From: a virus
Strand: one strand, 5' to 3'
Virus record (IMG/VR): IMGVR_UViG_3300009159_000226
Span: 1-29,151 of that record
DNA length: 29,151 bases
This document shows, one piece after another, positions 5,849 to 29,151 of this stretch. The notes below the pieces were generated by a model that had not been told where the DNA came from, searched no databases, and was given only the letters and a program-made list of their open reading frames with translations. The stretch's first letter is position 1; the number at the start of each line of letters is the position of its first letter. The position numbers were made by a program, and so were the translations under genes.

Positions 5849-5851
5849 GTT

Positions 5852-7867
5852 TTATGCTGTCCTTATCCATAACTTAACAGATGACACTGTTTCTTTAGTT
5901 GCTTGTATTGTTGCCCCAGAAAATGATCCAGTAAAATTATTTATATAACTTCCTGAGTAATTTCCAGTGTAATTTGTTGTTCCAGTGTAAAAACCAGTAT
6001 ATGCTATTCCTACGCCAGTGAAATACCCTGTATAGGTTCCAGTGTACGCTGTTCCAGTATAGAATCCAGTATATGGAGTTCCGCTGAAAAACCCTGAGTA
6101 TGCTGGTCCTGGACCAGTATAGAATCCAGTATATGAAGTTCCTGGACCGCTGAAAAACCCTGAGTACGCTGGTCCTGGACCAGTATAGAATCCAGTATAT
6201 GAAGTTCCTGGACCTGTAGGTCCAGTATAAGTTCCTGCATACGGCTGACCATATGATGGACCTGCTGGATTCGAGTATGATGGACCTGCTGGATTCGAAT
6301 ATGATGGACCTGCTGGGTTTGATCCTGCAGGTGTAGAATATGATGGTGGTCCCGCATAGAATCCAGTATAATATTGTTTGTCATAACCAGTAACAAAATA
6401 CAGGGAAGGGCCTTGGAAATTTCCTGCATAACCTAAATTTGATGCATAGAATCCAGCATAATTTTGTGGTGCCGAAAACTCTCCTATGTAAACTTCTCCA
6501 GGTTCATTTGGATAGATAGGTATCTCAAAGTATCCAGTATAGTTGAGACCTGGACCTGTATAAAACCCAGTATAGTTTGCACTAAAGGTACCACCAGTAT
6601 AGTATACTGCCTCTTGTCTTTGGGGCCGAGGACCATCGAAATTCCCTCCATAACTGCCAGTATATGGTGTTGAATATGATGGACCTCCTGGATTATTACC
6701 TGCTGGATTCGAGTATGATGGACCTGCTGGATTCGAATATGATGGACCAGCAGGTGTAGAATAAAATGGACCACCTATGTAATTACCAGTATAATTTGCT
6801 CCTGGATTTGCTGGACCTGTATAAGTTAATCCAGTATATGCTAAAGGGGAGGAAAAGGATCTAGTATAATTGCTGGACCCTGTATAGGTTGTTCCAGTAT
6901 ATGCTAAAGGGGAGGAAAAGGATCCAGTATAATTGCCAGTATAATTACCAGTATATGGCGAACTATAAGCAGGTCCAGTAAAATTACTGCTATAATTTCC
7001 CGATGCGGAATAGGGTGCAGAATATGGAAAAGGACCAGTATAATTGCCAGTATAATTACCAGTATAATTACTACTGTAATTACCAGCGTAGTTCTGTGGT
7101 GTTACTTCTTCGCGAGTATCCGTGAATGTGTTACCTGTTTGAACCCAAGTGCCTCCACTAGGCGCATCTGATTGTATTTTATATGTCCCGATACCTGTTT
7201 CAATAATTCTATTTCTAAAGACTGGAAGCATCTGTTCGATTTCTGCTTCAGTCATCTGCTTGCAGTTACTACCAGCAAACAATTTTAGTGGTGTGAGATC
7301 CACTGTTGGCGCCGAAGATGAAACTGTTTTCTGCCACAGATATGTTACAGTGTTTCCACCTTGCGCTGTATCTGTTAATGTATACCGCGAAACCCAAGTT
7401 CCGCCTGATGGCGCAGTTGCTTGGAGTTTATATTGTCCAGCAGTATATGTTGATTCTGCGACCATCGCCGCAACACAGAGATCCATTGTGCTATCAATGT
7501 CACCATCTACCATTTCTTCTAAGCGAGAATCCCATGCTAATGGTCTGTTGGTGATACTTTCCACTGCAGCAGCAGTAACCTGTTTAGCAGTGTATGTTGT
7601 TGTAGAGACTGCACCAGTAGCAGGATGCGTTCCGATAGATTCGGTTCTTGTTGTATCGACGAACGTGCCGATCGAAGTTCCTGCACCTGAGTTATTTGTA
7701 GTAATGTTAATTTCAGCAGTACCAGTACCATCTGTTACTGAAGCAAACTTTTCTGTGATAACATTGGCAATATAATTTTTTACCTCTGCGTCGGTCATGG
7801 TCTGCAAACCGCTGATGTTTGCAGAAGTGATTGGGGAACCTGTTGCCTTGACCTTTAGAGGGTTCAT
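5852..7867 (-). CDS. Repeat-rich tail-fibre-like protein, paralogue A
   Basis: 671 residues, ATG at 7867, two bases after the previous stop codon, with AGG further upstream. Residues 1-~260 match the head of the 579-aa neighbour closely. Shared blocks are DGTGTAEINITTNNSG, GTHPATGAV, TYTAKQVTAAA, TYTAGQYKLQ, APSGGTWVSRYTLTD and FRNRIIETGIGTYK. The repeat region (~260 to ~645) is more varied than in the paralogue: YTGNYTG runs, PAGPSYSN octads, and YTGFYTGPGPAYSGFFSG units of 22 residues. The last ~22 residues (ATIQATKETVSSVKLWIRT) form the same cap. The two genes are a tandem duplication with conserved head and cap and a divergent rod. Many NYT/NYS triplets occur in the rod. Function is inferred from architecture: a fibre or baseplate-anchored adhesin. 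Proline-rich parts may be flexible joints. Confidence 0.75.
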   Translation of the reverse strand: MNPLKVKATGSPITSANISGLQTMTDAEVKNYIANVITEKFASVTDGTGTAEINITTNNSGAGTSIGTFVDTTRTESIGTHPATGAVSTTTYTAKQVTAAAVESITNRPLAWDSRLEEMVDGDIDSTMDLCVAAMVAESTYTAGQYKLQATAPSGGTWVSRYTLTDTAQGGNTVTYLWQKTVSSSAPTVDLTPLKLFAGSNCKQMTEAEIEQMLPVFRNRIIETGIGTYKIQSDAPSGGTWVQTGNTFTDTREEVTPQNYAGNYSSNYTGNYTGNYTGPFPYSAPYSASGNYSSNFTGPAYSSPYTGNYTGNYTGSFSSPLAYTGTTYTGSSNYTRSFSSPLAYTGLTYTGPANPGANYTGNYIGGPFYSTPAGPSYSNPAGPSYSNPAGNNPGGPSYSTPYTGSYGGNFDGPRPQRQEAVYYTGGTFSANYTGFYTGPGLNYTGYFEIPIYPNEPGEVYIGEFSAPQNYAGFYASNLGYAGNFQGPSLYFVTGYDKQYYTGFYAGPPSYSTPAGSNPAGPSYSNPAGPSYSNPAGPSYGQPYAGTYTGPTGPGTSYTGFYTGPGPAYSGFFSGPGTSYTGFYTGPGPAYSGFFSGTPYTGFYTGTAYTGTYTGYFTGVGIAYTGFYTGTTNYTGNYSGSYINNFTGSFSGATIQATKETVSSVKLWIRTA
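5938..5945 (-). promoter_or_regulatory. T4-type late promoter word TATAAATA
   Basis: A perfect TATAAATA on the minus strand, inside the 3' end of fibre gene A and 90 bp upstream of the start of fibre gene B. This is the consensus -10 of T4 late promoters. Confidence 0.45.
6105..6214 (-). repeat. 44-bp perfect repeat spaced 66 bp, in fibre gene A
   Basis: Bases 6105-6148 recur identically at 6171-6214. The unit encodes 22 residues of the YTGFYTGPGPAYSGFFS type. The spacing equals that found in the other fibre gene. Confidence 0.85.
6260..6310 (-). repeat. 51-bp dispersed repeat (copy 1), made of 24-bp units
   Basis: Two near-identical 24-bp units encoding PAGPSYSN octads. The whole 51 bp recurs identically at 6698-6748 in the same gene. 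Confidence 0.85.
6698..6748 (-). repeat. 51-bp dispersed repeat (copy 2)
   Basis: Identical to 6260-6310, 438 bp away in the same reading frame. It encodes PAGPSYSN octads. Confidence 0.85.
6831..6923 (-). repeat. 30-bp perfect repeat spaced 63 bp, in fibre gene A
   Basis: Bases 6831-6860 recur identically at 6894-6923 and encode SFSSPLAYTG. The spacing is 21 codons, one less than the 22-codon unit elsewhere. Confidence 0.85.
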
Positions 7868-8574: not shown

Positions 8575-11500
8575 TTATACCTGTAATGCAATCGCTCTTA
8601 GTTCTCTCACGCGAGGGATGACAGAACTATTTGTTGATAGAGGAATGACCTTTACTGCGAAACTTTTATATCCGCTGTAAGTAACACTTCCTACTGTATA
8701 CTCAAGAACTCCAGCATTTTTATTTGCTGTCGGTATGGTATACTGATATTCAACATAACCAGATTTTGCCGTGGTGTTAAGAGGTAGATTTACTGCCTCC
8801 AATTCAATCCACGCAAGATCATCAAAGTTTGAGGGATCTGTTGCTTCTTGGAATTTACCATATACTTTAACATCACAACCAACAGGAATCTGATTGCTCA
8901 AATATACCTTTAGATCTTCTGCATCTTGTCCGTCATCAAGAACAACCCGACGAGAGATATACTTAGAAGCAGCGGAACCGTTGTTTCCAGTTTCAGTAGT
9001 AGTAAGATTATTTACATCATTGGCAATTGCGATTATAGAACATTTTCTAGTATCGATTACAGGCGAAACAGTTGATGTTTGTGTCAGCATACCTGCTCTA
9101 ACTGTCAGAGATTTATCCCCGTCCAAATCTGCCTGTTCATTTGAGTAAGAATAGATTTGTGCTTCATATGATAACTCATACTCCTGCCCGAAATTGATTC
9201 CCTCAAACGTAGTTCCGCCTGCACCTGCACCAGTCGCAGTTGGTGCGACTGACCAAGCAATAGTTGCAGGAGTATGATCAATAGCACCAATATTAGTTTC
9301 GAGGACATTAAGTTGCTTGTTCTCAATTTCAGTAATTTCAGCATAAGATGTACCGTTACCAATAATATCAGCAGCAGTGAACGAACCTGAATTTACTAAA
9401 ATCTTACCTACATTGTATAGAGAATCATATTGTTTAACAAATCCTCTATTCAACGTTACTGCTACTGCTGCAGCAGAACCACTACCGCTCGAGATAGTTA
9501 GTGTTGGATTAGTTGCAGTCGTATATGTCAGACCTGTCAACGTACCAGCAGTAGTTACAATTGCTGCATTCCCAGAAGTTCGAAGAGTGAATCCAGTAAC
9601 ATTTGGTGATGTACCAGTTACCGCAGAAACTTTGTAGACAGTTCCTGTTGTGTATCCAGTAATAGTGCCTGTGCCTGCACGAGTACCAGTAATTGTTACA
9701 GTATCACCAACAGATAGTGAAGATGCACCACAAGTAAACTGACCAGCAGTACCAGAAGTAGCAACAGTCGCTGCTAGAGTTCCAGGTGTTGTATTATATC
9801 CCGCTCCTGGATTTGTAACTACAACATTTGTTACTGCTCCACCTGCGATTGTTACAGCAACAGTTGCATTCGTAGTAGCACCGCCACCTGAAAGAGTATG
9901 CGTAATAGTTCCGTTCGTATAACCAGAACCCGCATTCGTAATATTAAAGGAGAATCCGTGAATTATATCACCTGCTTCAAAGTTTCCGTTCGTAAACGAA
10001 TCGAATTTCAGGAAGTCGACATCCATGTTTTTCATCACAAGCGAACCAACTGTATTGATCGCAAAGTTTGCACGACGCAAAGTAAACTTAATATCTTCTG
10101 CTTGGTGTGCTGTCCATGATCTATCATTTGCAGAAGTGAATAGTACACCAACATGAGGTTGCTCAGAAATTCTATTCTCTGTGCCGAGTTCGTTCTCACC
10201 CAATTCAGAAACCCAAATATTATACTCTGGATTATTACCTGCAGGAAGAAGAACAAAACAGTATTCTGTGTTGTTTTGCAAATATACTGGCGATGGGAAT
10301 GTGAAGGTTGTTGCAGTTGCGGCGGTTGCGCTCACAGAAACGTCACCAGGATTTAGTGTTACTTCACCAAACGGAATAACTCTATTACCAGGATATCCAT
10401 TTACCACTTCTCTTAGTTGGAGAGTAATTGGTGCGCTAGATGACTTGGTTTTGAAATATACATCAAGATTGGTAACATAACAACCGAATGGCATTCCTTC
10501 GACGTAGAAGGTCTGTGCAATAGGATCTCGTCCGCGAAAAGCTGGTGCGCAAGGACTTACTGTATTACAAATTTCAGGAAGTGTTATTGTTTCGAAACTT
10601 CCAAAAACGAGACCACCGAAACCACCGAAACCGCCAATTTGAATTTCTTGTGCAGGTGTGCAAGTTGTTACTGGTTCGCAAGGATTTGGAGTTGGAGTCT
10701 CTGGAATTACTACAACTTCCGGAATCGGTGTTACTGGTGGAGTAGTTACAATAGCAGGCGGATTTTGAATAATATTTGTTATGGTAGTATTATTAATTAC
10801 TGTATTATCAACCACAGTATTATCAATATTTGTTATATTGTTAACTGACGTAAATGTATTATTTACTGTTGTTTGGACAACACCTACATTTCTATCTGCT
10901 AATCTATTTTCAGTAGTAGATGTTTCAAATACTGATCTTGAATCAGAAATGGTATTGACAGTTACATTAGCAACTCGAGTTGATACAACTGTATCTTGGA
11001 CAGATTGTGACAATCCATTTGCTGACCATGTTTGCATTGACGCAGTTGTTATAAAAGCATCACGATTAAATTCATCATCACAGAGACGGAAGTTCTTATC
11101 ACCAGTGCGGAATGTCGCTGCTGGAATTCTAAATTGACCTACGCAAATACCTTGAGCATTTGTAATTAATGGATCACCATAAGCACCATCGATATACGAT
11201 GAATATGCTGCAGGATCTGTAGGTGTTATATCCGTATTCGGATCAAAACTCAGCGGTCTACAATGTGTCGCGACACCAATACCATCAAAGAATGGGAATA
11301 CTCGTGTATTTGGTTTCATTCTTTTCGCGATAAACGTTACGACAACTGAACGCATGAACGGGATGATAGAAGTGTCCGTTACGCGAGCACCAATTCTCTG
11401 ACTTTGTGTTTCAGGAGTTACTGAAAGAGAAACACCTTGACGAGTTTGACGCTGTTCGGTGGTAGTAGTTATAACTTGTGTTTGTTCTTGGAATAGTGTA

Positions 11501-14500
11501 TCACCACGTATTTGTGTATTACCAGCGACAGTTTGTGAGGTTTGTCCTGTGGCGGTTCTACCAGTTACTACATCTTGCCAATCACCATACTGAGTTCCCC
11601 ATGCATCTGCCATGTTTTCCCAAGCATCATAATTTCCATCGAAGTTTACGCTTACATCTGGTTGCAGCGAGGTATCCGTCCAGTTATCAACTGGTGGATC
11701 TAGTTCCATATTTCCGATGTAGTTAAAGAGTAACTCCCCGACGCAATTTCTTGGTTTAGAGGCCGATGTATTTTCCGTCATCATGACATTGGCATACGGA
11801 AGAGTGATTAAATCGCCTGTCTTATATACGTTTGTTGAGTTGGTATAATCAAAGGCGAGATCGATATTTTCTAGATAGAAGAAAGGACGCAGTTCTTTCT
11901 TTACTGGATCAATTGAGATATGATATGCACTATCAAAAACATTACCGATGTTATGCCCAGTAAACGCATCAACTAGGATACCATTTTTAAATCGATCAAG
12001 ACCAGAGCCATCTGGTATAGATAAATCGCTTGCCGCTTTTTCTAGTAGCGATAGAGATGTATAATACTCAAGACGATTTATGCGCTGTTCCAGGACACCG
12101 ATATCACGCATTGTGTAACGACGATTATCAATGCTTCGGAATGTTACACCATAATCTGGTCTGTTTACACTCTTCGCAACATTAGGAGCGAGTGATGGAT
12201 ATGGTGGAATTGTTATGATTGCCAGTGACATGCAATTGTCAGGTTCAGCAGGAATTCCAGGAGTCAACGATGGTGTACCATATATCGTACTGAACACACC
12301 TTCAGAGTCAATGATCAGTCGATCTGTTCTTCCGAGATAATACTCTAAATCAGTAATAAACTGTTCAGTTGGAACTGGATTTGTGATACCAACAGAAGGA
12401 GCAGTTAAGGTTGTGCTCTCAGTAGGATTAGTTGTTGCAGATCCCACAGTGGTAGAATTTGCTGCAGAATCTGTATACCGAACACGGAAATCTAAAGTAT
12501 CGCGCAAGTCATATGTTTCACCTGTTAGTGGCGATTTATAAATTGGAATATCCTGCGTCTTAATTGTTCCTGCGGTCGCACCAGTATCATCAATCGGATA
12601 CGAATCAACAACAAAGAAAGTACCATCTGCAGAAGCACCATCATGGGTGAAGAAATCTAATTTGACAACCAATTTCTTATTTACAAGTGACGGTGCGCTG
12701 GGTTTCTTGATGATTCTGGCATTGCGATATTCATTATCACGTTGACCATTATCGAGAGTAAACGAAGAAGCAATATCTACACCAGCAGCAACTACTGCAG
12801 AATCAGAATCAGTGTTGGCGCCAATAAAGATATTTTTAATTCGATAAACATCCGACAGACCAAGCGAATACGTACCACCACTAGTTGATGGGTGAGTATT
12901 CGTATTGATAATTGCGTAACGATCTTCACGAAGAACCTTCAGAACAGGATTTGCATTTGCTGTTTGAACATTAACATACAATTTTACGGTTTTCGGTGCA
13001 GAAGTAACTGCTCCTACAAGATCGATCGTAATGGATTGTGCAGAGTTTCTTGTAAAGGTAGCAGCCGTAAGAGCAATATTAGAACCAATTGGTCTTGAAA
13101 CCGAGTTTATTGTTGCTGCTTCTTTCATGATCATGGTGAAGTTGTTATTGATGATCGTAGAAGTAAATCCACCAGCTGCATATGGGAAGGTCTCATCACC
13201 AGTCAGAGTGATGGTTACTTGCCCAGAAGCATTAAGTTCTCCGTCGAACTCTTTGGTATAGATAAATGAGTTATCGTAAACTGCACTAGGAGCAATCGTT
13301 TTCGTTGCTCGAGCAGGAATTCTATAAAGAGATTTGTTGAAACTTGTTTCTTGTAGAACAGCATTGCCACCCACGAGAACAATGTCAGCATGCCCATCAG
13401 CAGTATCATTGTAGAAGATACCGCGAACATCTTTAAAATCACCACTTGACATTGCAATGTCATAGAGATATAAACGATATTCTGCCGCAGCAGTTCCAAC
13501 TGTACCCGATTCATATACAATCTGTTTTACACGAGCAGTACCAACCTGAGATCCTGCTGCAGCAGTAGCAGAAAATGTTGTTGCAGTAATTGCTCCTGCT
13601 GCTGCGCTGCGAAGACTGACCTTATCGCCAGTGTTTAAATCCCACATCCCGCAGAATTCATCTACGAGAATATAGTTACCATACGCAGTGCTAATCGGAA
13701 TTTCTTGTTGATTTACTGTTGTAAGTCCCTTTGGAACAACAACGTATTCTGTTTGGAATGTTTCATGCTCGTACCCACGAACATATGCTTTACCTGCTTC
13801 AAGACCGATAGCAAGAAGATCTTTACTGCCACCACGTTCTGGATCGACAGTGTTTAGTGCTCGTAAACCATTGTTACTGTCAACATTAAGATGCTCTTTA
13901 ATAAGAACAGGAAATTGTCTTACTGCATAGTTACCCGACTCATCATATGTGCGTCTCGCCATGTTCTTGCCGAGTTCGCCATAAATATTTGCAGTATAAA
14001 TTCTTTGGACTTCTCCACTTATGATTTCAACCAATTGGTTAAACGTGGGAGGAATTGTGTCAGTTGATTCATATGCAACAAGTGTGGTTGTAACTCGGTA
14101 TCTATCTGCGCCTGGAGCAGCATAGTTGAAAGATCCTTGCGCAGGATCCTGTAAAAATGGATCATCTTCAGAAGAAACTGTATCTTCTACGATCTGGAAT
14201 CCAACCTTTACAGATGGTAGGTTGGAATACTTAGAAAGTATGATTGTTTGTGTTTCATGATTGACGAATTTACCATCAATATACACAATACCATTATCAA
14301 CAGTCAAAGCGGAAGCAAGACCCCAATAACTGTTAGTTGGTTCTGCTGAATCATATGTGGTATCAACAACAAATGTATCACCGTTTCTGCCTGCAGTTGT
14401 GGAAGTTACAGTAAGAGTTTCGCCTCCTGTGAAGTGAACCGCAGTTGTAGATCCATCACCACTTGTATAGCGAAGATATAGTGTTTTCAAGTCGGGAGAT

Positions 14501-14865
14501 TCTGCTTGAGTGCCAGTTGCTGTATCTAAAATTACTGCAGTAATTCCTGATGTTGCACCAGTTACAGTATCGCCAACATAATCTGCTAATTCATCATTGA
14601 CCACTCCAGCATCGAGGATCTTAACGAATGCTCTCTGAGAATCTAGTTTGAATTCACAACCTTGGACGACTGAACCATTCTTAAAAATGTGGTCACCGAA
14701 TTTACCGACCTGATCTTGCAGAATAGATTGTAGTGCAGTCAGTTCTCTTGCTTGGACTGCATATCCAGGTCTAAATAGAATTCTATTATAATTGTTTACA
14801 ATCGCACCAATCAATGGTTCATTAGAATCATCATAATACGGTGAGACGTTTAAATTCAGTGCCAT
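8575..14865 (-). CDS. Very large DUF4815-type virion structural protein (probable baseplate, gp10-like position)
   Basis: 2096 residues, ATG at 14865, 13 bases after the gp8 stop. The N-terminus (PYYDDSNEP, NRILFRPGYAVQARELTALQ) is typical of DUF4815 structural proteins in T4-like phages of aquatic bacteria. Residues ~1328-1435 are a low-complexity hinge: Asn/Val/Thr repeats (NTVVDNTVINNTTITN), then Pro-rich (TTPPVTPIPEVVV), then a glycine run (GGFGGFGG). From ~1448 a beta-rich domain follows (AQTFYVEGMPFGCYVTNLDV). Around 1638-1693 there are two GxGY repeats, and ~1695-1783 is an 89-residue module also found in the gp7-like protein. The C-terminus (VVLDDGQDAEDLKVYLSN, VIPRVRELRAIALQV) again matches the family. 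In T4 the gene after gp8 is gp9 then gp10, so a peripheral baseplate role is likely. Family membership is from memory; the exact role is inferred. Confidence 0.75.
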   Translation of the reverse strand: MALNLNVSPYYDDSNEPLIGAIVNNYNRILFRPGYAVQARELTALQSILQDQVGKFGDHIFKNGSVVQGCEFKLDSQRAFVKILDAGVVNDELADYVGDTVTGATSGITAVILDTATGTQAESPDLKTLYLRYTSGDGSTTAVHFTGGETLTVTSTTAGRNGDTFVVDTTYDSAEPTNSYWGLASALTVDNGIVYIDGKFVNHETQTIILSKYSNLPSVKVGFQIVEDTVSSEDDPFLQDPAQGSFNYAAPGADRYRVTTTLVAYESTDTIPPTFNQLVEIISGEVQRIYTANIYGELGKNMARRTYDESGNYAVRQFPVLIKEHLNVDSNNGLRALNTVDPERGGSKDLLAIGLEAGKAYVRGYEHETFQTEYVVVPKGLTTVNQQEIPISTAYGNYILVDEFCGMWDLNTGDKVSLRSAAAGAITATTFSATAAAGSQVGTARVKQIVYESGTVGTAAAEYRLYLYDIAMSSGDFKDVRGIFYNDTADGHADIVLVGGNAVLQETSFNKSLYRIPARATKTIAPSAVYDNSFIYTKEFDGELNASGQVTITLTGDETFPYAAGGFTSTIINNNFTMIMKEAATINSVSRPIGSNIALTAATFTRNSAQSITIDLVGAVTSAPKTVKLYVNVQTANANPVLKVLREDRYAIINTNTHPSTSGGTYSLGLSDVYRIKNIFIGANTDSDSAVVAAGVDIASSFTLDNGQRDNEYRNARIIKKPSAPSLVNKKLVVKLDFFTHDGASADGTFFVVDSYPIDDTGATAGTIKTQDIPIYKSPLTGETYDLRDTLDFRVRYTDSAANSTTVGSATTNPTESTTLTAPSVGITNPVPTEQFITDLEYYLGRTDRLIIDSEGVFSTIYGTPSLTPGIPAEPDNCMSLAIITIPPYPSLAPNVAKSVNRPDYGVTFRSIDNRRYTMRDIGVLEQRINRLEYYTSLSLLEKAASDLSIPDGSGLDRFKNGILVDAFTGHNIGNVFDSAYHISIDPVKKELRPFFYLENIDLAFDYTNSTNVYKTGDLITLPYANVMMTENTSASKPRNCVGELLFNYIGNMELDPPVDNWTDTSLQPDVSVNFDGNYDAWENMADAWGTQYGDWQDVVTGRTATGQTSQTVAGNTQIRGDTLFQEQTQVITTTTEQRQTRQGVSLSVTPETQSQRIGARVTDTSIIPFMRSVVVTFIAKRMKPNTRVFPFFDGIGVATHCRPLSFDPNTDITPTDPAAYSSYIDGAYGDPLITNAQGICVGQFRIPAATFRTGDKNFRLCDDEFNRDAFITTASMQTWSANGLSQSVQDTVVSTRVANVTVNTISDSRSVFETSTTENRLADRNVGVVQTTVNNTFTSVNNITNIDNTVVDNTVINNTTITNIIQNPPAIVTTPPVTPIPEVVVIPETPTPNPCEPVTTCTPAQEIQIGGFGGFGGLVFGSFETITLPEICNTVSPCAPAFRGRDPIAQTFYVEGMPFGCYVTNLDVYFKTKSSSAPITLQLREVVNGYPGNRVIPFGEVTLNPGDVSVSATAATATTFTFPSPVYLQNNTEYCFVLLPAGNNPEYNIWVSELGENELGTENRISEQPHVGVLFTSANDRSWTAHQAEDIKFTLRRANFAINTVGSLVMKNMDVDFLKFDSFTNGNFEAGDIIHGFSFNITNAGSGYTNGTITHTLSGGGATTNATVAVTIAGGAVTNVVVTNPGAGYNTTPGTLAATVATSGTAGQFTCGASSLSVGDTVTITGTRAGTGTITGYTTGTVYKVSAVTGTSPNVTGFTLRTSGNAAIVTTAGTLTGLTYTTATNPTLTISSGSGSAAAVAVTLNRGFVKQYDSLYNVGKILVNSGSFTAADIIGNGTSYAEITEIENKQLNVLETNIGAIDHTPATIAWSVAPTATGAGAGGTTFEGINFGQEYELSYEAQIYSYSNEQADLDGDKSLTVRAGMLTQTSTVSPVIDTRKCSIIAIANDVNNLTTTETGNNGSAASKYISRRVVLDDGQDAEDLKVYLSNQIPVGCDVKVYGKFQEATDPSNFDDLAWIELEAVNLPLNTTAKSGYVEYQYTIPTANKNAGVLEYTVGSVTYSGYKSFAVKVIPLSTNSSVIPRVRELRAIALQV
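9518..9783 (-). repeat. 89-codon shuffled module, copy in the 2096-aa protein
   Basis: 266 bp encoding the module that begins GTLAATVATSGTAGQFTCGA and ends TAGTLTGLTY. It aligns without gaps to 18373-18638 and 19420-19685 in the gp7-like gene. The stretch 9728-9783 differs by one base each from 18583-18638 and 19741-19796. Confidence 0.85.
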
Positions 14866-20780: not shown

Positions 20781-22673
20781 TTATTCTTGTGAATTAGCAA
20801 TTGCAGTAACAGTAAGTCCTGCTAGAGTATTTGCTGTAGCATTTGCGGAACTGGTATCTAGAGTCAACACGGTATTTCTAGAAGCATAAGGAAATACTGC
20901 AGACGTAGAAGATTCTGTAGTAGAAGTTAAATTTGTTGTTAAGACATTCGCAGCGTCGCCGAATGGTTCGACATAGATTCGTAGTTCTGTTTCTTCGCCC
21001 GATAAAGAATCAACAGTAATATTATTAATCTTAACAACTCCTGTCGTATAATCAACAGTTCCTATGTTAGATCCAATAATTACATCATCAGAAACTCTCT
21101 TCAAAACAAGAGTTCCTATATCACCAACTGTCATGTTATGTTGATCAGTAATATAAACTTCATATTGGCGACCAGTAATAGTGGTGTTAAAGTTTGTTGA
21201 AACTAATGTTTCTGTTTCCAAATTACCATTGAATCTAATTTCATAATCGTCAAAGATTCCAAAAATAATAGGAATTCTTTTGTGCATTTTAACTTGGATA
21301 CTAGCTGAAAAAATAGACTCAGTTGTCCCAATTACTAAACCAAGTAATTTCGAATAGTAAAAGTTTTTCTGTAGTTTATTAACATTATTCGTAAAATAGT
21401 TTTGCACAACAGTTCTAACTTCAGACTCAATTCTCGAAGAAGTAAGAGAAGTTAATGTCTTGTTGTAATTGACAGAAACATCAAGACCAATATACGTTTG
21501 AATTGGATCAACGAATTCAGGTTGTATTGAAACTACGCTTCTAGGGCGAATAATGTCTCTCGCAATAATATCTCTATCTGCTTGTGTGATAATAGATCCA
21601 GGAAGAGGTTGAATTGAAATGAACACCTTGCCATAAATAGGGGGATTGTTATCTTCTCCGCCCCAGACTGCGATAGAATTGATGTTACTAAATCTTGATC
21701 GAATTAACGTTTCGTAGTCTTGCGAGGTAACAACTCGATTTTTAGTTGCATTAAATTTTGGAGCATTATAACGGATGCTATCAATGCTTTCTTTTTCTTG
21801 ACCGCCTGTCGCAACAGATTCCAAATATACAACCTTTGTTTCACCAGACCCAGTGAATGTCTGAGTTGCCGAAAAATTCGGTATAGAATTTGGTGCTGCT
21901 CCGCTACTGACAATATAATCCACAAGAACAATATTACCAACTGATAATTGTTTTCCTATAATATTATCGCCAAATCTAATCTCATAAAGACCCGCTGGAC
22001 CTTCTTCGATAAAGAATGCTCTGGTTGTTTCATCTACTAATGTAATATCATCATAATAACTCCACGCTGTTATGGTAGCATTACCAGATGATTCTTGTAT
22101 GCGAACTCGTATAGTTGTAGTATCAACATTTATATTAGGAATAACAAATGGACCAGATTTATTCGATTGATCAACAACAAAATTATTAGAAACTCTCTTA
22201 CCTTCGATCAGTTCCATAGGGAAACTAAATCCAGTTTGACCTGTTTCCAAAGTTACCAATCCAGAAACGTGATCTTCTTTAGGATAAAACGTATAAGTTT
22301 TATTGGTTGTTTTTGCTGTAAATTGTGTACTTCTAGGAATGGTTAAGCTTGTTCCGGAATATGTAGTAGGCGGATCGACTTGAAATATAATATTTGCTCT
22401 TGCCGATTTCCTTGATGTTGGTGTGTATCCCAACGTTTTAGCAATGGATGCAACTGAATTTCTTTTTACAGCACTATCGATAAACATTTCATTAGATTGT
22501 AGATGCGCAAGAGTTGCATTATAATGTGTATTATACGCAAGAATGTCTAGAAGGATAGAAAGACCAGCACCATCAAAGTTGTAGTCTTGAAATTCTTCTT
22601 GAGACTGCATGAAGATTTTTAGATTTTGTTTAATTGCTGCAAAATCTAATTCTGTTACATTTAATTGCGCCAT
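20781..22673 (-). CDS. gp6: Baseplate wedge protein gp6
   Basis: 630 residues, close to the ~660 of T4 gp6; ATG at 22673, one base after the gp25 stop codon. The N-terminus has the family signature: LDFAAIKQNLKIFMQSQEEF, then DYNFDGAGLSILLDILAYNT and a NEMFIDSA motif that is also typical of J-type baseplate wedge proteins. The middle holds DYIVSSGAAPN and YNAPKFNATKNRVVTSQDYE, the strongly conserved core of gp6/J-like proteins, followed by SINSIAVWGGEDN-type sequence. gp6 forms the continuous ring of the baseplate inner wedge with gp25 and gp53; here it directly follows gp25. A gp53 gene is not visible in this window. No oddities in length or reading frame were seen. Confidence 0.92.
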   Translation of the reverse strand: MAQLNVTELDFAAIKQNLKIFMQSQEEFQDYNFDGAGLSILLDILAYNTHYNATLAHLQSNEMFIDSAVKRNSVASIAKTLGYTPTSRKSARANIIFQVDPPTTYSGTSLTIPRSTQFTAKTTNKTYTFYPKEDHVSGLVTLETGQTGFSFPMELIEGKRVSNNFVVDQSNKSGPFVIPNINVDTTTIRVRIQESSGNATITAWSYYDDITLVDETTRAFFIEEGPAGLYEIRFGDNIIGKQLSVGNIVLVDYIVSSGAAPNSIPNFSATQTFTGSGETKVVYLESVATGGQEKESIDSIRYNAPKFNATKNRVVTSQDYETLIRSRFSNINSIAVWGGEDNNPPIYGKVFISIQPLPGSIITQADRDIIARDIIRPRSVVSIQPEFVDPIQTYIGLDVSVNYNKTLTSLTSSRIESEVRTVVQNYFTNNVNKLQKNFYYSKLLGLVIGTTESIFSASIQVKMHKRIPIIFGIFDDYEIRFNGNLETETLVSTNFNTTITGRQYEVYITDQHNMTVGDIGTLVLKRVSDDVIIGSNIGTVDYTTGVVKINNITVDSLSGEETELRIYVEPFGDAANVLTTNLTSTTESSTSAVFPYASRNTVLTLDTSSANATANTLAGLTVTAIANSQE

Positions 22674-22674
22674 C

Positions 22675-23073
22675 TTATCTACTTCTTTTTAGAATGGTTG
22701 AAAATGTTACGGGATCTGGAACACCAATAACGTAAAAATACATGGTAATTTCAAATGCATTTTCATCATATAATGGAACTACATCTACTTGTTGAGATCT
22801 AACTCTCGGTTCAAATTTGTTAATCAGTAGTTCTATTCGCAATTTCAAAGAATTCGCAGTGATTGTGTCGACCTGATCAAACAGCATACCATATACGGGA
22901 GATCCCAATTTTGGTTGAAAAGGTCTCTCATAATATTGTGTCAAGATCAAAACCTTGAGTGCTTGTTTGACTGAATTGACATCATACTTCTTTACAACGT
23001 CACCCGTGATTGGATGCGCACCAAAGGATAAATCCAGATCAGAGTATATTCTGTTTGTTTCTTTTACTGCCAT
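22675..23073 (-). CDS. gp25: Baseplate wedge protein gp25
   Basis: 132 residues, the same length as T4 gp25. It carries the family's core: RPFQPKLGSPVYGMLFD (T4 RPFDPEFGCDLSDQLFE), then ITANSLKLRIELLINKFEPR with the conserved EPR motif, and VDVVPLYDENAFEITMYF (T4 VNVIPVYDDYTLIVEIRF). Members share the fold of T4 gp25 and of the type VI secretion protein TssE. gp25 starts sheath assembly by contacting the first sheath ring, bound to gp6 and gp53. The ATG at 23073 has no clear Shine-Dalgarno site, and a TATAAATA word ends only six bases before it. The previous gene ends 19 bases upstream. Its stop codon lies one base from the gp6 start, which suggests coupled expression. Confidence 0.93.
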   Translation of the reverse strand: MAVKETNRIYSDLDLSFGAHPITGDVVKKYDVNSVKQALKVLILTQYYERPFQPKLGSPVYGMLFDQVDTITANSLKLRIELLINKFEPRVRSQQVDVVPLYDENAFEITMYFYVIGVPDPVTFSTILKRSR

Positions 23074-23092: not shown

Positions 23093-26000
23093 CTAGGCGA
23101 CTTGTTTAAATCCTGCTGTGTATTTCATACCTTTACCAGAAGGAGTGGCTGTCAGACATTGTCCTCTCGATTTTCCGTTTCTACCTACATAACCTATGTG
23201 AATCCAAACTGAACCGCTGCTATTCTTTTCAAGAATAATTTGATCATATGCTGATAGATTAGAAGCAGCCCAGCGACAAACATCAATATATTGTTTTTTG
23301 CTCAATTTAGGGAATGACAAGTCAACTGCTGATCCCCAACCATGCGCATTAGGATCCAGTTTATTTTTCTTCCCATTCGGATAGTATTTTCTAAATCCAC
23401 AGGACCAAGTCACAGATCCATACTTGTCGAACAATGGTTCTATGACGTTAACAGCAAGACAACGAAGATTATTCAATATTTCATACTCGTTCTGTTTGCT
23501 TCCTGGCGATTTATGTCCACGAAGATCGGCAGCGCCACTAGGGCAACCATCTCTACCATTACATAATTGTGCCAGTGTTATTCTTGGAGAAATTTTTAAA
23601 GTGCCATCATATTTTTGTCCCTGTTGAGGAAGAGGTGGAAGTTTTACTCCCTTCAATGTATTACAATCTTTTGGTGGTATTCCACTTTTCCCTGCTGGTG
23701 CTGGATAAGTAGTACCATCACCCGATGTTCCATCGCCCGATTCAGGCGAATTGCCCGATGAAGGATCTCCTCCATTATCAACACAGTCATCTCCAGTTTC
23801 AGATCCAGAAAGTTGTCCTGAAACGTTACCGTTTTCATCAGGTTCTCCACCATCAGTGTTCATACTACTGTTTTCGCCACCATACCCAGTTTTAATGTCG
23901 TCATTAGTTCTTTCAACTGGTTGTGGAGCAGATAGAGAAACAGGTTGTTCTAACTCATATGTTACTGGGAGTTTCGCAGATACTGCACAGACTGCATCTT
24001 CAGCAGAACCAGCAGATGCAGGAACTGTGATAGTAGCAGTAGTGTTCCCCTTAATATTTGTAGTATCATCTGGACTATTATGTGTTCCCTTGAGGTTTGT
24101 AGTTCCTGCATTCAATGTAGTAATATTTGCTGTTGTTACATCAAGAGTTGCGGTATCAATTGGCGAAGATGTAACCAATGGTGCCTTCAAACTGATATTT
24201 CCTGTGCTTTCTGCATTAATAGTTCCAGCAGATTTAATATTGACATTACCCGTCGATTCTTGATTTATCATCGCAGCAGATTTTAAGTTAATGTCGCCAG
24301 TAGATTTAGCAAGAATTTCTGCATCAGTGCACAGGTTCATGTTACCAGTTGAATGATTAAAGAATGAACCACCAGATTTGATATGTGTATTAACCTTCGA
24401 TGTCAGATTCAATCCTGCATCTGTTGTTAGATTGTATTTACCAGTAGTTTTGGTAGTTACTGCTCCTGTTATATCAGCATCAACCTTACCTTCATTTTTG
24501 ACAGAAATATCGCCTTCGTTTCTAAGATAGATACCATCTTGCACCGAAAGACCAAGCGATCCGCCAATGTTGACATTAACATCATTATGGATATCAAGAC
24601 TGACTTTACCATGCATTGTTAATGCAGTGTCATTCATAATAAACACATTACATTGTCCTGCAATGTGAACGTTGGCATTACCTTCAATTAAAACAAAACC
24701 ATCTTTTTCAATGATGGAATACCCATTACCAATAATTTTATTTACTTGAGTTCCATCAGGTCCAGTCTCTGTAAAGGTTCCTGACTTGTGAGCAATATTC
24801 AAACGCTCGAATCCAGGAGTATCATCGATTTCTAATGCGTGTCCAGATTCGCCAGCAAATACTTTATTGTATGGATATTTTGCAGCGTATGGAGTTGCTG
24901 GTTGTTCCCATGTAGATCCCGAACGACCTGCCATTTTAACAGCACGTTTTCTCGATGCGTTTCTTGCGGCGGGAGAAGAACCGAGAGATTGTGATGATTT
25001 ATCACCAGCAGATGTTCTCGGATCTGGATTAATTCCAGGGGAATTGACGCCAAGCGCAAGACTATTAGTATCTGGTTTATTTACATAGTCGGGTTTCGGA
25101 TAGGTTTTCTTCGGATCAGCAAATCCTTTACCATCCGCTTTAGCGATGTTGGTGTTTTCATTTGTGGGGAGATTTTCTGCATCTGGTGCATTGACCGCAG
25201 TATTTACTGCGTCAGCTGCCTGTGCGGGATGAGAAATACCATTATCAATAGTTGATTTTGGTTGTTCCTTTAATGGTGCTTGTACTTTCTCTACGCTCTT
25301 TGCTTGCGTAACAGTTCCATCTGTTTCTGTAGTTGTTGTGACTGTAGTAACAGCACCAGATGCTTGTAGTGTTGATACGGAAGAAGTGGAACTACCATCC
25401 ACTGCAGTTATCGGTGTTTGTGACCCCGATGTGGTGATGCTTTGAATATCTTCTGCAAAATTAGCAAGGATTTCGTTTTTCGCAGTATTACTTGCTTGAA
25501 ATGTAAAATCATTCCCCATTCTTTGCGCATAGGTCGCCACTGAATCTAGTTGTTTGACTAGAGTTTCTACATCAGCTGGATCATCAAACGCAATAACCTT
25601 ATTAGATTCTGCTCGATCAATACTACCACTGCGCTCAAATTCTTTTTGTGCTTGTAGTTGCGTTACAATAGATGTTATATTATTAGTTATGAAACTTATT
25701 GTTTGTTGGATAGCAGCAGACCATTCTCCAACTCCCCTATCATGGCGCTGAGAACCTTCTGAATCTAGTAATTTCCGTAACGCAATAACTGCATCTGTTC
25801 CAGGTAGTTGATCATCCCCCTGAAAAAGAAAGCGACCACCTTTTTCTATCTTATCAATTATTTTAATCTCAAATGCGGTAGGATCAAATCCACCAATAAA
25901 ATATATCGAAAGCGTAATACCATTAGCAGGAGATGTAGTATATGGATTTGAGAGAGCACTGGCAGAAGAAAATGGTGGTGTATCTTTTAATCCTGTTGTA

Positions 26001-27103
26001 ACTCTTACGGAAATTGTTCCCGCTTCAGTCAATTCATATAAAATAGTTGAGAATTTATTTGCTTTAGATATTCTTCTAACGATTTGTTGGGTGGAATCTG
26101 CTGATGTTTTAGCAGTACCAACAACTGTTGAATCTGTAGGAACTGAAGCAATCTCTTCTGCTGTAGGTGGAGGTGTTACTTCCGCATCGAGAACTACGCT
26201 TGTTGTACCTTCAGTTGGTCCTGGAGTTGCAACTTTTTCTGATGGTAGCGCGACAGCATTATAACCAACATCAAACCAATACTTGGCAGATATACCATTT
26301 GCATCTGTCTTAACATTTCCTCGCAAATAGTTTTGCGTTGCGTCGATGTCCCAACAAATTGATAGACCCAAAGCGCCAGCAAGAGTTTTCTTATCTACAT
26401 TGACATTAATTGCCCTTGAAGTCAGTAACAATTGATATGTGAATTTAAGTAAATTTAATGCAGCAAGATCTTGCAAAAATGGATTTTCTATGAATCCTCC
26501 ATGCATATCACCATGCTCTGTCAAAGCACCATCTGCATTCTTCAATGCTAATTGTGGGTGAACAGAAACATTAAATCTGGGATCACCACCATTAATTGGA
26601 TAAATTAGCATGTAGTATAATGCATTATTTCTGGCACTGACAGGCGCTTCAAGTATTCGTGTTTGCTTACCAGAATTATATTTTAAAAACCGACTATACC
26701 AACTTTCATATTCTTCATTGCCTCTTGATGGTACAGGAATATTTGGTAGATTATTACTAACCCATGTATTCAACTCACTTCCGAATATTCCTGCATCAAT
26801 TAACTGCGCGACACCAAGTTTATACACACCATATTCACCGTCTGCGTGCACGACAGTAAATTTCCACTGATCGCCAGTTGGTGTTAATTTACCTCCAGGG
26901 GAAGCAAGCAAACTAAAACCTTGCCTCGGTGGTTCGCCGAAATTATATACTCGATTATAATACTGCATGGTCATGGCATTCTGAATTTGTTTCAGAAGCG
27001 CAACAACATCATCGCGAGTCAGAGAACCAATGGTGTCATCTTCTGCCATGTTGATATTATCAGCAGAAGTGAAGTATGGAGTAAATGCATCGTACTTGTT
27101 CAT
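23093..27103 (-). CDS. Beta-helix spike protein (gp5 C-terminal-like) with C-terminal M15-type peptidase
   Basis: 1336 residues. The ATG at 27103 is preferred because AAAGG lies about seven bases upstream; a TTG at 27109 is in frame but less likely. Residues 1-~340 are an unrecognised domain (containing GEYGVYKLGVAQLIDAGIF), and ~340-730 is mostly polar linker with helical parts. Residues ~733-985 resemble the gp5 C-terminal spike: TPYAAKYPYNKVFAGESGHA, DGTQVNKIIGNGY, then many eight-residue strands (STGNVNIKSAG, ESTGNISLKAP) as in a triple-stranded beta-helix. Residues ~985-1130 are an acidic Gly/Ser linker. The C-terminus (~1150-1320) looks like an M15-type D,D- or L,D-peptidase: SCGFR, AHGWGSAVDLSF (His1254, Asp1261) and WIHIGY (His1302) would be the zinc ligands. 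It probably forms the membrane-piercing spike and cuts peptide cross-links in the host wall. Confidence 0.8.
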   Translation of the reverse strand: MNKYDAFTPYFTSADNINMAEDDTIGSLTRDDVVALLKQIQNAMTMQYYNRVYNFGEPPRQGFSLLASPGGKLTPTGDQWKFTVVHADGEYGVYKLGVAQLIDAGIFGSELNTWVSNNLPNIPVPSRGNEEYESWYSRFLKYNSGKQTRILEAPVSARNNALYYMLIYPINGGDPRFNVSVHPQLALKNADGALTEHGDMHGGFIENPFLQDLAALNLLKFTYQLLLTSRAINVNVDKKTLAGALGLSICWDIDATQNYLRGNVKTDANGISAKYWFDVGYNAVALPSEKVATPGPTEGTTSVVLDAEVTPPPTAEEIASVPTDSTVVGTAKTSADSTQQIVRRISKANKFSTILYELTEAGTISVRVTTGLKDTPPFSSASALSNPYTTSPANGITLSIYFIGGFDPTAFEIKIIDKIEKGGRFLFQGDDQLPGTDAVIALRKLLDSEGSQRHDRGVGEWSAAIQQTISFITNNITSIVTQLQAQKEFERSGSIDRAESNKVIAFDDPADVETLVKQLDSVATYAQRMGNDFTFQASNTAKNEILANFAEDIQSITTSGSQTPITAVDGSSTSSVSTLQASGAVTTVTTTTETDGTVTQAKSVEKVQAPLKEQPKSTIDNGISHPAQAADAVNTAVNAPDAENLPTNENTNIAKADGKGFADPKKTYPKPDYVNKPDTNSLALGVNSPGINPDPRTSAGDKSSQSLGSSPAARNASRKRAVKMAGRSGSTWEQPATPYAAKYPYNKVFAGESGHALEIDDTPGFERLNIAHKSGTFTETGPDGTQVNKIIGNGYSIIEKDGFVLIEGNANVHIAGQCNVFIMNDTALTMHGKVSLDIHNDVNVNIGGSLGLSVQDGIYLRNEGDISVKNEGKVDADITGAVTTKTTGKYNLTTDAGLNLTSKVNTHIKSGGSFFNHSTGNMNLCTDAEILAKSTGDINLKSAAMINQESTGNVNIKSAGTINAESTGNISLKAPLVTSSPIDTATLDVTTANITTLNAGTTNLKGTHNSPDDTTNIKGNTTATITVPASAGSAEDAVCAVSAKLPVTYELEQPVSLSAPQPVERTNDDIKTGYGGENSSMNTDGGEPDENGNVSGQLSGSETGDDCVDNGGDPSSGNSPESGDGTSGDGTTYPAPAGKSGIPPKDCNTLKGVKLPPLPQQGQKYDGTLKISPRITLAQLCNGRDGCPSGAADLRGHKSPGSKQNEYEILNNLRCLAVNVIEPLFDKYGSVTWSCGFRKYYPNGKKNKLDPNAHGWGSAVDLSFPKLSKKQYIDVCRWAASNLSAYDQIILEKNSSGSVWIHIGYVGRNGKSRGQCLTATPSGKGMKYTAGFKQVA

Positions 27104-27113
27104 TATCAAACCT

Positions 27114-28070
27114 TTATGCTAATGCTTGGTTGGTGACAAAAGATGGAACTTGCGCAACACCCTTTTCGCCATTATATGTGCTCTTTTTATTAAAACCAAA
27201 AGCATTTGTTCTGTTGCTACCAGGAATTCTATCGACCGCCTTATTTACAGCACCTTTATATGGATTTCCTCTGAAGTCCGTTCTTGGCCCAACAAATTTT
27301 CTAGACTTATCTTGTAGTTCTTTGTTCTTTAAATTGTTTGCAACAGTTAACAATTGTTTTGCGTTTCCTTTTTTACCCAATGCCTTCACAGCGCTGTTTA
27401 TATCTTTTATGTTTTTCCATTCAGCATTTGGTTTGCTTGTCGTACCTTGTTGTGGATAACTCCAAGTAGGTTCATATTGCCATGTGGCGCAAACGCATTG
27501 AGTTACTGATTTGCCACCATAAACTCCTGCGAGCATTCTGTTGTAGATAGATTGTGCAACATCACATTGATCTTGTGCTTTATCTGCACCCATTCCTGCT
27601 TCCGCTGCACAAACTGCAACCAATGTCCAAAACTCTTGATTTGGCGGACCAGCAGAAATGGGTTGACCGCCATCTTCTTCGGATGGTGCGCCTGTTGCGT
27701 CGTCGCCAGAAGAACCTGACCCTTCTGATGGAGCGCAATCTGCTGATCTCAATCCTCCAGGAATTGCTCCGACTGTACCCCAGAACATAGGATGTTGCCC
27801 GTTCTCACCGTCAGCAAAAAATCCAACGACCCAAGTACCCTCGACAGCACCAGTCGGCGACCAACCAACACCAGAAGTTCCTGCTGAATTTGCGGGCATG
27901 ACTGGCATCGCCCATGGAAGATCGTCGGATGGTAGAACTTCACTATCTTCTGTATGATAACCGATAATTCTCACGCGACATCTACCCAGTCGAAGTGGGT
28001 CTTCTCTGTCTTCCACGACACCAAACCACCAATAAAAATTTGGGTTATTGTTAGATGTAATATTATCCAT
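27114..28070 (-). CDS. gp5: gp5-like OB-fold hub protein with SleB-like cell wall hydrolase domain
   Basis: 318 residues from the ATG at 28070, just after a GAGAG site; a longer frame from 28232 would lie inside the hub gene. Residues ~11-105 are the gp5 N-terminal OB-fold: NFYWWFGVVEDREDPLRLGR, CRVRIIGYH, LPWAMPVMPA, GVGWSPTGAVEGTWVVGFF and HPMFWGTVGAIPGG. An acidic Gly/Ser linker follows (~110-140). Residues ~145-318 look like a SleB/Hydrolase_2 domain: FWTLVAVCAAEAG with the likely catalytic Glu157, then DVAQSIYNRM and CVCATWQYEPTW. Such enzymes cut peptidoglycan glycan strands. T4 gp5 has OB-fold, lysozyme and beta-helix in one chain; here the beta-helix is in the next gene. The start lies 10 bases after the hub stop codon. 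Domain naming is from motifs remembered, not from a search. Confidence 0.8.
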   Translation of the reverse strand: MDNITSNNNPNFYWWFGVVEDREDPLRLGRCRVRIIGYHTEDSEVLPSDDLPWAMPVMPANSAGTSGVGWSPTGAVEGTWVVGFFADGENGQHPMFWGTVGAIPGGLRSADCAPSEGSGSSGDDATGAPSEEDGGQPISAGPPNQEFWTLVAVCAAEAGMGADKAQDQCDVAQSIYNRMLAGVYGGKSVTQCVCATWQYEPTWSYPQQGTTSKPNAEWKNIKDINSAVKALGKKGNAKQLLTVANNLKNKELQDKSRKFVGPRTDFRGNPYKGAVNKAVDRIPGSNRTNAFGFNKKSTYNGEKGVAQVPSFVTNQALA

Positions 28071-28080
28071 TATTATTCTC

Positions 28081-29151
28081 TCACGTTGTTGGTTTTGCCG
28101 CTGGGATTGCGGTTGGAGTTGTTGCTGGTGCTGGAGTTGCTGCTGGAGCAGTCGGAGCAGTTTCTGGTGTCTCAGGTTCTCCATCGTCAACATCATATAG
28201 AGGTTGAGCATAGGAGTCTTTAGCAATTTCAATAAACATTGTATGACGAAATGGAGTTATTTGATGGTGAATCGCAGTTACCATGTAGATACCAGAAATT
28301 AAAATATCCCATATACCTGCTTCTGAATCATCTGTTACATTTTTCTCACCAACAGAAGGATAGTAAAACCGTATCAATCTTCCGACTTCAATGTCTGTTC
28401 TTCCAGGAACAGTTAATTGTAAACGCATAGTAGTTATATCCATCAAAGAACTATTGCGTTGCGCGACAAACTGTTCTGGGTGGAGATCAATCGAATCTTC
28501 CGTTGAGTCTAATACTCCTGGATTTACTGTAGAAACAAATGGTCTATTGTCACCAGAACGTAAAACATTTATTGGAAATATCATGTTATATTTTCTAGTT
28601 TCATCATATTGAAAAGAACCAGCACCCTTCGAGTCTGCCACGAACTTATAAGATTCCATGTGCTTTATCGGGGTTTCTGGTTTTCCATTAAAATTGAAAC
28701 CATGATCATAAGTATAAGGAGTATAATCTTTCTTCACAAGATCAAATGAGTGAACCGTGCTTGCAAAATGTCCCAGATCTTGACTTTGTATAATATCCAA
28801 ATTAGTCAAGAAATTCATTGCTTCTACTGTAGCGAATCCTTTAGATAAAGAAGAAGTTGTGTCAAGACTATCAATATTTGGATGATAAACATAATCTGAG
28901 TAGATTTGATTGTTTTCTAATTGATATGCCACCAATTCTTCAATAGAAGACAAATAAAATGCTTTCGTCGTTTCAAAGAAAAGAAACGTCGGGGTTTTAT
29001 ACTCAGAACCAATGCATCTTTTTGCCAACCAATTAATAGTTTGAATTGGTGACCACATCGGAGGAACAAATGTTATTACAGAACTATGTGGAGTATCTGC
29101 AATGAACAGTTGTGTTTTGTCATCTGTATCGTCTACTGCTTGTTTGTTTGT
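28081..29151 (-). CDS. gp27: gp27-like baseplate hub protein, 5' end outside the window
   Basis: The frame stays open to the right edge, so only the C-terminal 356 residues are seen; a Met at 29058 is internal. Visible blocks include LFIADTPHSSVITFVPPMWS, PIQTINWLAKRC, PTFLFFETTKAFYLSSIEEL and DDSEAGIWDILISGIYMVTA, then IHHQITPFRHTMFIEIAKDS. The final block matches the T4 gp27 C-terminus in layout ([20 protein letters not shown]). gp27 forms the trimeric hub ring that connects the tail tube to the gp5 spike, which fits the next gene being a gp5 OB-fold protein. The last ~30 residues are an unusual Pro/Ala/Thr-rich tail (APTAPAATPAPATTPTAI). The stop codon is 10 bases before the next ATG. Identification rests on these blocks and the context. 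Confidence 0.7.
   Translation of the reverse strand, partial: TNKQAVDDTDDKTQLFIADTPHSSVITFVPPMWSPIQTINWLAKRCIGSEYKTPTFLFFETTKAFYLSSIEELVAYQLENNQIYSDYVYHPNIDSLDTTSSLSKGFATVEAMNFLTNLDIIQSQDLGHFASTVHSFDLVKKDYTPYTYDHGFNFNGKPETPIKHMESYKFVADSKGAGSFQYDETRKYNMIFPINVLRSGDNRPFVSTVNPGVLDSTEDSIDLHPEQFVAQRNSSLMDITTMRLQLTVPGRTDIEVGRLIRFYYPSVGEKNVTDDSEAGIWDILISGIYMVTAIHHQITPFRHTMFIEIAKDSYAQPLYDVDDGEPETPETAPTAPAATPAPATTPTAIPAAKPTT

Follow-up and report, generated by a model that had tools for sequence, protein, structure and literature searches.

The gp5 protein of phage T4 is made from one gene and contains, from its N-terminus, an OB-fold, an FxDP...DTN linker ("GFSDP..DTN"; GFSDPTGQYPRRLGNDTNVL, residues 113-132), a lysozyme domain, a cut between Ser351 and Ala352, and a trimeric beta-helix that starts at about residue 376; it lies beside gp27 and ends as separate chains, gp5* and gp5C (PMC3004832). 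In a 29,151-nt viral fragment (IMG/VR record IMGVR_UViG_3300009159_000226, analyzed at its full length and called the window below), comparable parts are divided between two neighboring genes, and the initial annotation proposed that the division made by proteolysis in T4 is made here by gene structure. The locus thus raises two questions: does the gene boundary correspond to the T4 cut, and which part of the second protein could hold the two products together?

The window is a 29-kb single metagenome contig from an incomplete genome. Baseplate genes follow each other on its minus strand, from a gp27-like hub gene through gene 1, gene 2 and gp25 to gp6 (Table 1). The gp27-like product matches PHROG tail-protein family phrog_350 (E = 7.5e-37) and, in a BLASTP search, phiOC_p065 (E = 5e-7), for which the depositors give the label 'T4-like gp5' and an HHpred match to 1WTH chain D, a chain that we take to be gp27. 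Gene 1 and gene 2 each have a start codon of their own, and TAAAGGTTTGATAATG at their junction contains a Shine-Dalgarno-like AAAGG. A 2096-aa ORF (window positions 8575-14865) and two large ORFs of 579 and 671 aa that have no PHROG match (4109-7867) lie downstream of the baseplate genes; a short ORF at 885-1484 matches part of DNA methyltransferase family phrog_2675 (E = 5e-17).

Table 1. Features of the two-gene gp5 locus and adjoining baseplate genes (window coordinates).
Feature	Coordinates	Strand	Remarks
gp27-like hub gene	28081..29151	-	directly upstream of gene 1; 5' end cut by window edge
Gene 1	27114..28070	-	ATG 28070, stop 27114; 318 aa; OB-fold and SleB-like wall hydrolase
gp5 OB-fold, gene 1 residues 10-103	27762..28043	-	phmmer, profile, PF06714 positions 11-71
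SleB-like (Hydrolase_2) cassette, gene 1 residues 141-318	27117..27650	-	PF07486 in homologues; invariant Glu157 in 'AAEAG'
Gene junction GCATAAAGGTTTGATAATG	27101..27119	-	stop TAA, SD-like AAAGG, ATG 27103
Gene 2	23093..27103	-	ATG 27103, stop 23093; 1336 aa; spike protein
N340 domain, gene 2 residues 20-290	26234..27046	-	probable degenerate lysozyme-slot domain; hhalign, phrog_27932
Middle region, gene 2 residues 291-659	25127..26233	-	beta-rich, then long helical segment (AlphaFold2 secondary structure)
Linker GFADPKKTYPKPDYVNKPDTNSLALG, gene 2 residues 660-685	25049..25126	-	counterpart of T4 gp5 113-132; phrog_430 positions 112-152
gp5C-type beta-helix	24029..24946	-	phrog_430, T4 gp5 matches
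M15-type peptidase, gene 2 residues 1168-1336	23096..23602	-	C-terminal end of spike chain; HGWGSAVD (1254), WIH (1300)
gp25 wedge gene	22675..23073	-	directly downstream of gene 2; PF04965 E = 1.8e-11
gp6	20781-22673	-	next after gp25

The OB-fold and the beta-helix had been placed on gene 1 and gene 2, respectively, and both assignments were confirmed. The N-terminal part of the gene 1 product matches the Pfam Gp5_OB model (E = 3e-13) and residues 6-103 of T4 gp5 (phmmer E = 3.5e-18; E = 1e-23 with a profile); in T4, the OB-fold is the part of gp5 that is seated on the gp27 hub. The gene 2 product matches T4 gp5 residues 372-525 (phmmer E = 1e-17) and positions 312-578 of the PHROG gp5 family phrog_430 (E = 1e-47). 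By these matches, gene 2 carries the C-terminal triple-stranded beta-helix of the T4 gp5 family. Instead of one primary chain with an OB-fold and a helix that is cut later, the window and its relatives have two genes, and instead of an active lysozyme in the middle, the window has, by sequence, a SleB-like enzyme on gene 1.

The enzymes that had been paired with the two domains fared unequally. The SleB-like assignment of the gene 1 enzyme is our weakest domain call: Hydrolase_2 (PF07486) matched six of nine relatives, with a best E-value of 3e-5, and the scores (24.9 bits for the best relative, 17.6 for the window) are below the curated Pfam cut-off of 27. A Foldseek comparison of a weak AlphaFold2 model of the gene 1 product with PDB gave no match of the SleB fold, and an NCBIfam search of gene 1 added nothing. 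The M15-type region of gene 2 matches a PHROG endolysin family (E = 2e-10), and the residues of an H-x6-D...H zinc site with Arg and Glu (R71, H87, D94, E125, W133-x-H135) are invariant in all 17 sequences aligned; Peptidase_M15_3 matched nine of these 17 relatives (best E = 8e-6) and did not match the window itself, and PDB profile matches were mostly to hedgehog and also to the DD-peptidase 1LBU (E = 0.2-0.9).

Judged by sequence, the gene 1 enzyme is an exchangeable cassette, of which seven types were found. The OB-fold of the window is 87-92% identical to those of L007, L020, L022, L034, L063, L038 and L066. At 92% OB identity between the window and L007, the SleB-like part is nevertheless replaced by GH19. 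Within the window's clade, a SleB-like C-terminal part is present in the window, L006, L018, L031, L034-L038 and L062, GH19 in L007 and many others (Pfam E = 1e-5), and Phage_lysozyme2 in L066 (E = 2e-26). More distant split phages carry a Phage_lysozyme of the T4L type (L096, E = 1e-13), a VgrG3-like C-terminal domain (L111, E = 6e-55), a VanY-like enzyme (Melnitz, a weak match, E = 1e-4) or CHAP (phiM9, E = 2e-10). The M15 domain of gene 2 is exchanged as well: among relatives whose helices are 94-100% identical to that of the window, M15 identity is 98% for L006, 46% for L031 and 43% for L007. In L105 (4931-5413), gene 1 codes for only 160 aa, with an OB-fold and no detected enzyme, and adjoins a gene 2 of 948 aa; the split therefore occurs without any enzyme cassette. 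In two contigs (L059:6658-7149 and L060:12928-13419), M15 is encoded by its own gene downstream of gene 2, so that the spike is divided among three genes. PAAR_motif had no match in the window or in the contigs, themselves incomplete, of eight window-type relatives (G001-G006, G009, G010); two relatives from another split clade do match it, and Melnitz encodes a PAAR-like protein. The M15-bearing spike may do without a separate PAAR tip.

The phrog_430 profile matched both genes colinearly, with positions 7-114 in gene 1 and positions 112-152 and 312-578 in gene 2. The Gp5_OB model (PF06714) is itself divided, its positions 11-71 matching gene 1 and 79-129 matching gene 2, and it is likewise divided in nine of ten long relatives. 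The linker, GFADPKKTYPKPDYVNKPDTNSLALG, is found in gene 2, about 45 residues ahead of the conserved TWEQP..YPYN that starts the helix part. As aligned, the gene break lies between the OB barrel and the FxDP..DTN linker. Of 67 split gene-2 proteins, 61 contain the linker, among them the ones that have no N340 domain (the N-terminal domain of gene 2, described below); the count is of related sequences and not of independent events. The six linker-less proteins comprise five of the phiM9 type and one from a locus that is perhaps truncated; docking in the phiM9-type proteins must therefore differ.

Since the linker is in gene 2 and the boundary lies upstream of it, ahead of the lysozyme and the cut in the T4 order, the gene boundary is not a genetic copy of the T4 proteolytic cut. 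The proposal that it replaces the cut at 351/352, with ~340 residues at the N-terminus of the gene 2 product serving as a new hub-docking domain, does agree with the gross division of gp5* and gp5C (OB-fold and enzyme versus beta-helix) and with the good conservation of N340, which is 66-91% identical among close relatives. However, the linker stays with gp5* in T4 and with the helix here, N340 has its counterpart in a lysozyme-type domain inside unsplit gp5 and so is not a new docking module, and no N340 was seen in Melnitz or the L111 clade, both of which have the split. We consider this proposal unlikely. The existence of split proteins that lack N340 also means that this domain is not a general docking device; we propose that the linker is the better candidate, as a putative docking segment.

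The N-terminal extension of gene 2 is longer than the ~340 residues given initially: about 650 aa precede the linker and about 730 the helix. Its first 340 residues, which had been proposed to provide docking, instead match a domain from the lysozyme slot of unsplit gp5, and no copy of them was detected in the split genes of Melnitz and of a second environmental clade. N340 had no match in Pfam. PHROG gp5-type family phrog_27932, which includes the central domain of the phiM9 gene-2 protein (E = 2e-108), gave weak matches to N340 in every one of 12 members (best E = 5.5e-6, window E = 1.4e-5). An hhalign comparison of N340 with the intact form of the domain, taken from single-chain gp5 and phiM9-type gene 2 proteins, gave a probability of 98.1 (E = 1e-13) in an alignment of 164 columns that is colinear throughout. 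The intact form was found in phiM9, Atu_ph04, RL2RES, OLIVR5 and ORM_20 and in the unsplit environmental gp5 proteins L147 and L108, where it lies, with its Glu, between the OB-fold and the linker. Its Glu-Ser is invariant, and after it come a G-x-YQFG-like motif and ALxDLGY; residues 89-105 of the window's N340, GEYGVYKLGVAQLIDAG, correspond to 'GKYQFG..ALIDLGY' of this form. We conclude from these alignments that N340, over the first 300 residues of gene 2, is homologous to the lysozyme-slot domain of unsplit gp5. The assignment of the intact domain to the lysozyme fold rests on its motifs and on a resemblance to transglycosylase-like families, which we presume. PDB sequence searches with N340 and with the phiM9 intact domain gave no credible match and no solved relative; the pyrin and ClpX matches to these queries are due to chance. 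AlphaFold2 models were weak (mean pLDDT 64.7 for gene 2 residues 1-640 and 49.8 for gene 1), and Foldseek searches of PDB with them returned nothing below E = 0.001; the lysozyme fold of N340 and the SleB fold are therefore not confirmed structurally. No family match was found for the middle region of gene 2. Searches of isolate phages by tblastn with N340 (1-340) and with the middle region found nothing, and rhizobial phages were reached only by the N340 of a distant relative.

Among 28 N340 sequences, no acid is conserved at the position of the catalytic Glu, while the later motif GxYGxY....QLxDAG is kept. N340 is thus probably a degenerate, non-catalytic lysozyme-slot domain. It could be argued that N340 has kept muramidase activity by means of another acid, giving a spike with two or three enzymes, since the intact homologues (phiM9-type gene 2, L147 and L108) keep their Glu and a Glu is found nearby in some N340 sequences ('IKEQY', for example). 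However, no acid is conserved in that stretch over the 28 sequences and the loop is rebuilt, and we regard residual activity as quite unlikely.

A look for the same split in related phages had been suggested as a check, and the split was indeed found there. All N340-anchored relatives in which the upstream gene is on the contig have two genes. In a helix-anchored scan, which does not presuppose a split, 80 loci were classified together with a few GenBank loci; 25 were split, 38 were single-chain, and 19 were undecided, mostly because the contig ends. Of 46 distinct junctions, 45 range from a 4-nt overlap to a 24-nt gap (14 are 1-nt overlaps, mostly TAATG, and four are 4-nt overlaps), and L106 is an outlier at 503 nt. 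Such spacing suggests that translation of the two tandem genes is coupled. A separate, intact gp5 was looked for in ten relatives with contigs of 61-172 kb, the window itself being a 29-kb fragment, and none was found: each relative has one OB half and one helix half. We conclude that the window is a member of a family of uncultured T4-like phages with gp5 in two neighboring genes. As to whether the split arose once or several times, the best tree topology needs five changes between the single and split states; a tree constrained to group every split row is not rejected, however (p-AU 0.34), and when Melnitz and phiM9 are left out, the held-together tree is slightly better.

These results also bear on two further readings of the locus. 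The two products might not form one device; gene 1 would then supply the hub plug, and gene 2 an independent accessory spike, or a fiber for another stage. The phiM9-type genes, which are about 35 kb apart, would fit this, and tight co-expression is therefore not essential; however, each of the ten contigs has a single OB half and a single helix half, and nearly all window-type relatives have abutting or overlapping genes, which makes separate devices improbable. The chance that one gene looks like two because of gp5 decay or an error in sequencing or assembly is next to nil: the window is a single metagenome contig, but it has two ORFs with a ribosome-binding site, the isolates Melnitz and phiM9 are also split, and the same layout in 46 distinct junctions rules out a frameshift artefact.

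The explanation that we favor, and consider probable, is a genuine two-gene gp5 whose products form a linker-docked, non-covalent 3+3 complex, with the old lysozyme kept as a structural domain. The assembly steps are reconstructed from the split, its conservation, the break position, the enzyme exchange in gene 1 and the homology of N340, which are themselves read from sequence. Because the genes abut or overlap, both products would come from one message. The gene 1 OB trimer would seat on gp27 as in T4, carrying three wall hydrolases on its C-termini, and gene 2 would form a trimeric needle whose C-terminal end bears the M15 peptidases. The linker, which heads the beta-helix, may dock non-covalently on the OB trimer, in place of the covalent bond that exists in T4 before processing. 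No maturation cut between the chains would be needed, because they are separate from the start, and the needle would be free to leave without prior cleavage; the hub would retain the SleB enzyme as the beta-helix and the M15 peptidase go ahead. The former in-line lysozyme would have stayed at the start of gene 2, lost its catalytic Glu and been retained as a structural domain. T4 lysozyme stays inhibited by the helix until dissociation (PMC3004832). A dead lysozyme on the spike could, as a consequence of gp5 splitting, act as a lid and clamp that keeps the gene 1 enzymes inactive, or joins the two chains, until shedding of the spike; such a role, which we rate as rather unlikely, would replace the inhibition exerted by the T4 beta-helix.

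A split gp5 is already known in other phages, having been published for Agrobacterium phage Atu_ph04, Sinorhizobium phage phiM9 and Rhizobium phage P10VF (PMC6630229), and the phiM9 record also annotates it. As in the window, these members of the Pootjesviridae have one gene for the OB-fold and an enzyme (in phiM9, CHAP) and another for a lysozyme-type domain and the beta-helix, and the ten relatives described above share with the phiM9/Atu_ph04 type the separation of OB-fold and helix and the lack of an intact gp5. Unlike in the window, the phiM9 genes are far apart, the lysozyme-type domain of the phiM9 type retains its Glu (the window has it on the helix gene in a degenerate form; hhalign 98.1%, E = 1e-13), and no FxDP..DTN linker or M15 domain could be detected in phiM9 gene 2. 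An HNH homing endonuclease gene lies between the gp27-like and OB genes of phiM9 (L084:1913-2608); it is a possible agent of gene separation.

Methylophilales phage Melnitz has an adjacent split (QZI94880, OB-domain protein; QZI94881, baseplate hub/tail lysozyme), with the linker and the helix together in gene 2 and M15 at its C-terminus, as in the window, but its gene 1 has a VanY-type peptidase (a weak match), its gene 2 lacks N340, and an adjacent gene codes for a PAAR-like protein. Searching the Melnitz paper by term turned up nothing on a split gp5. The order OB-fold, enzyme, linker, helix, M15 is shared with IMG/VR L147 and L108 (lysozyme-type domain) and with Synechococcus phage BUCT-ZZ01 (GH19), in which, however, it is encoded by a single gene, with the catalytic-type Glu intact in L147 and L108. 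T4 gp5 differs from the window in its single gene and its cut, in having the linker on the N-terminal fragment, in its active lysozyme of the T4L type and in the lack of an M15 domain. In open-licence PMC papers, we found no description of the position of the boundary relative to the linker, of the likely pseudo-lysozyme, or of the cassette slot, and it is these points that appear to be new here.

With its halves as separate genes, the locus is a natural experiment on the reason for the T4 gp5 cut: if no processing is needed for the two-gene form to work, the T4 cut would serve to let the enzyme and the needle part and would activate neither. The cassette slot behind homologous OB-folds, with at least seven kinds of wall hydrolase, makes adaptation to the host wall traceable, and the structural role of a likely inactive lysozyme domain that is kept in many phages can be tested by deletion. 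In L022 (7416-12413), as well as in L023 and L024, N340 contains two inserted segments of about 125 and 93 aa at different loops; both have a PVKRISTDPADF...IQDQIVEID...LTL core, with 70% identity over 90 residues, and represent a duplicated insert in a single spike protein.
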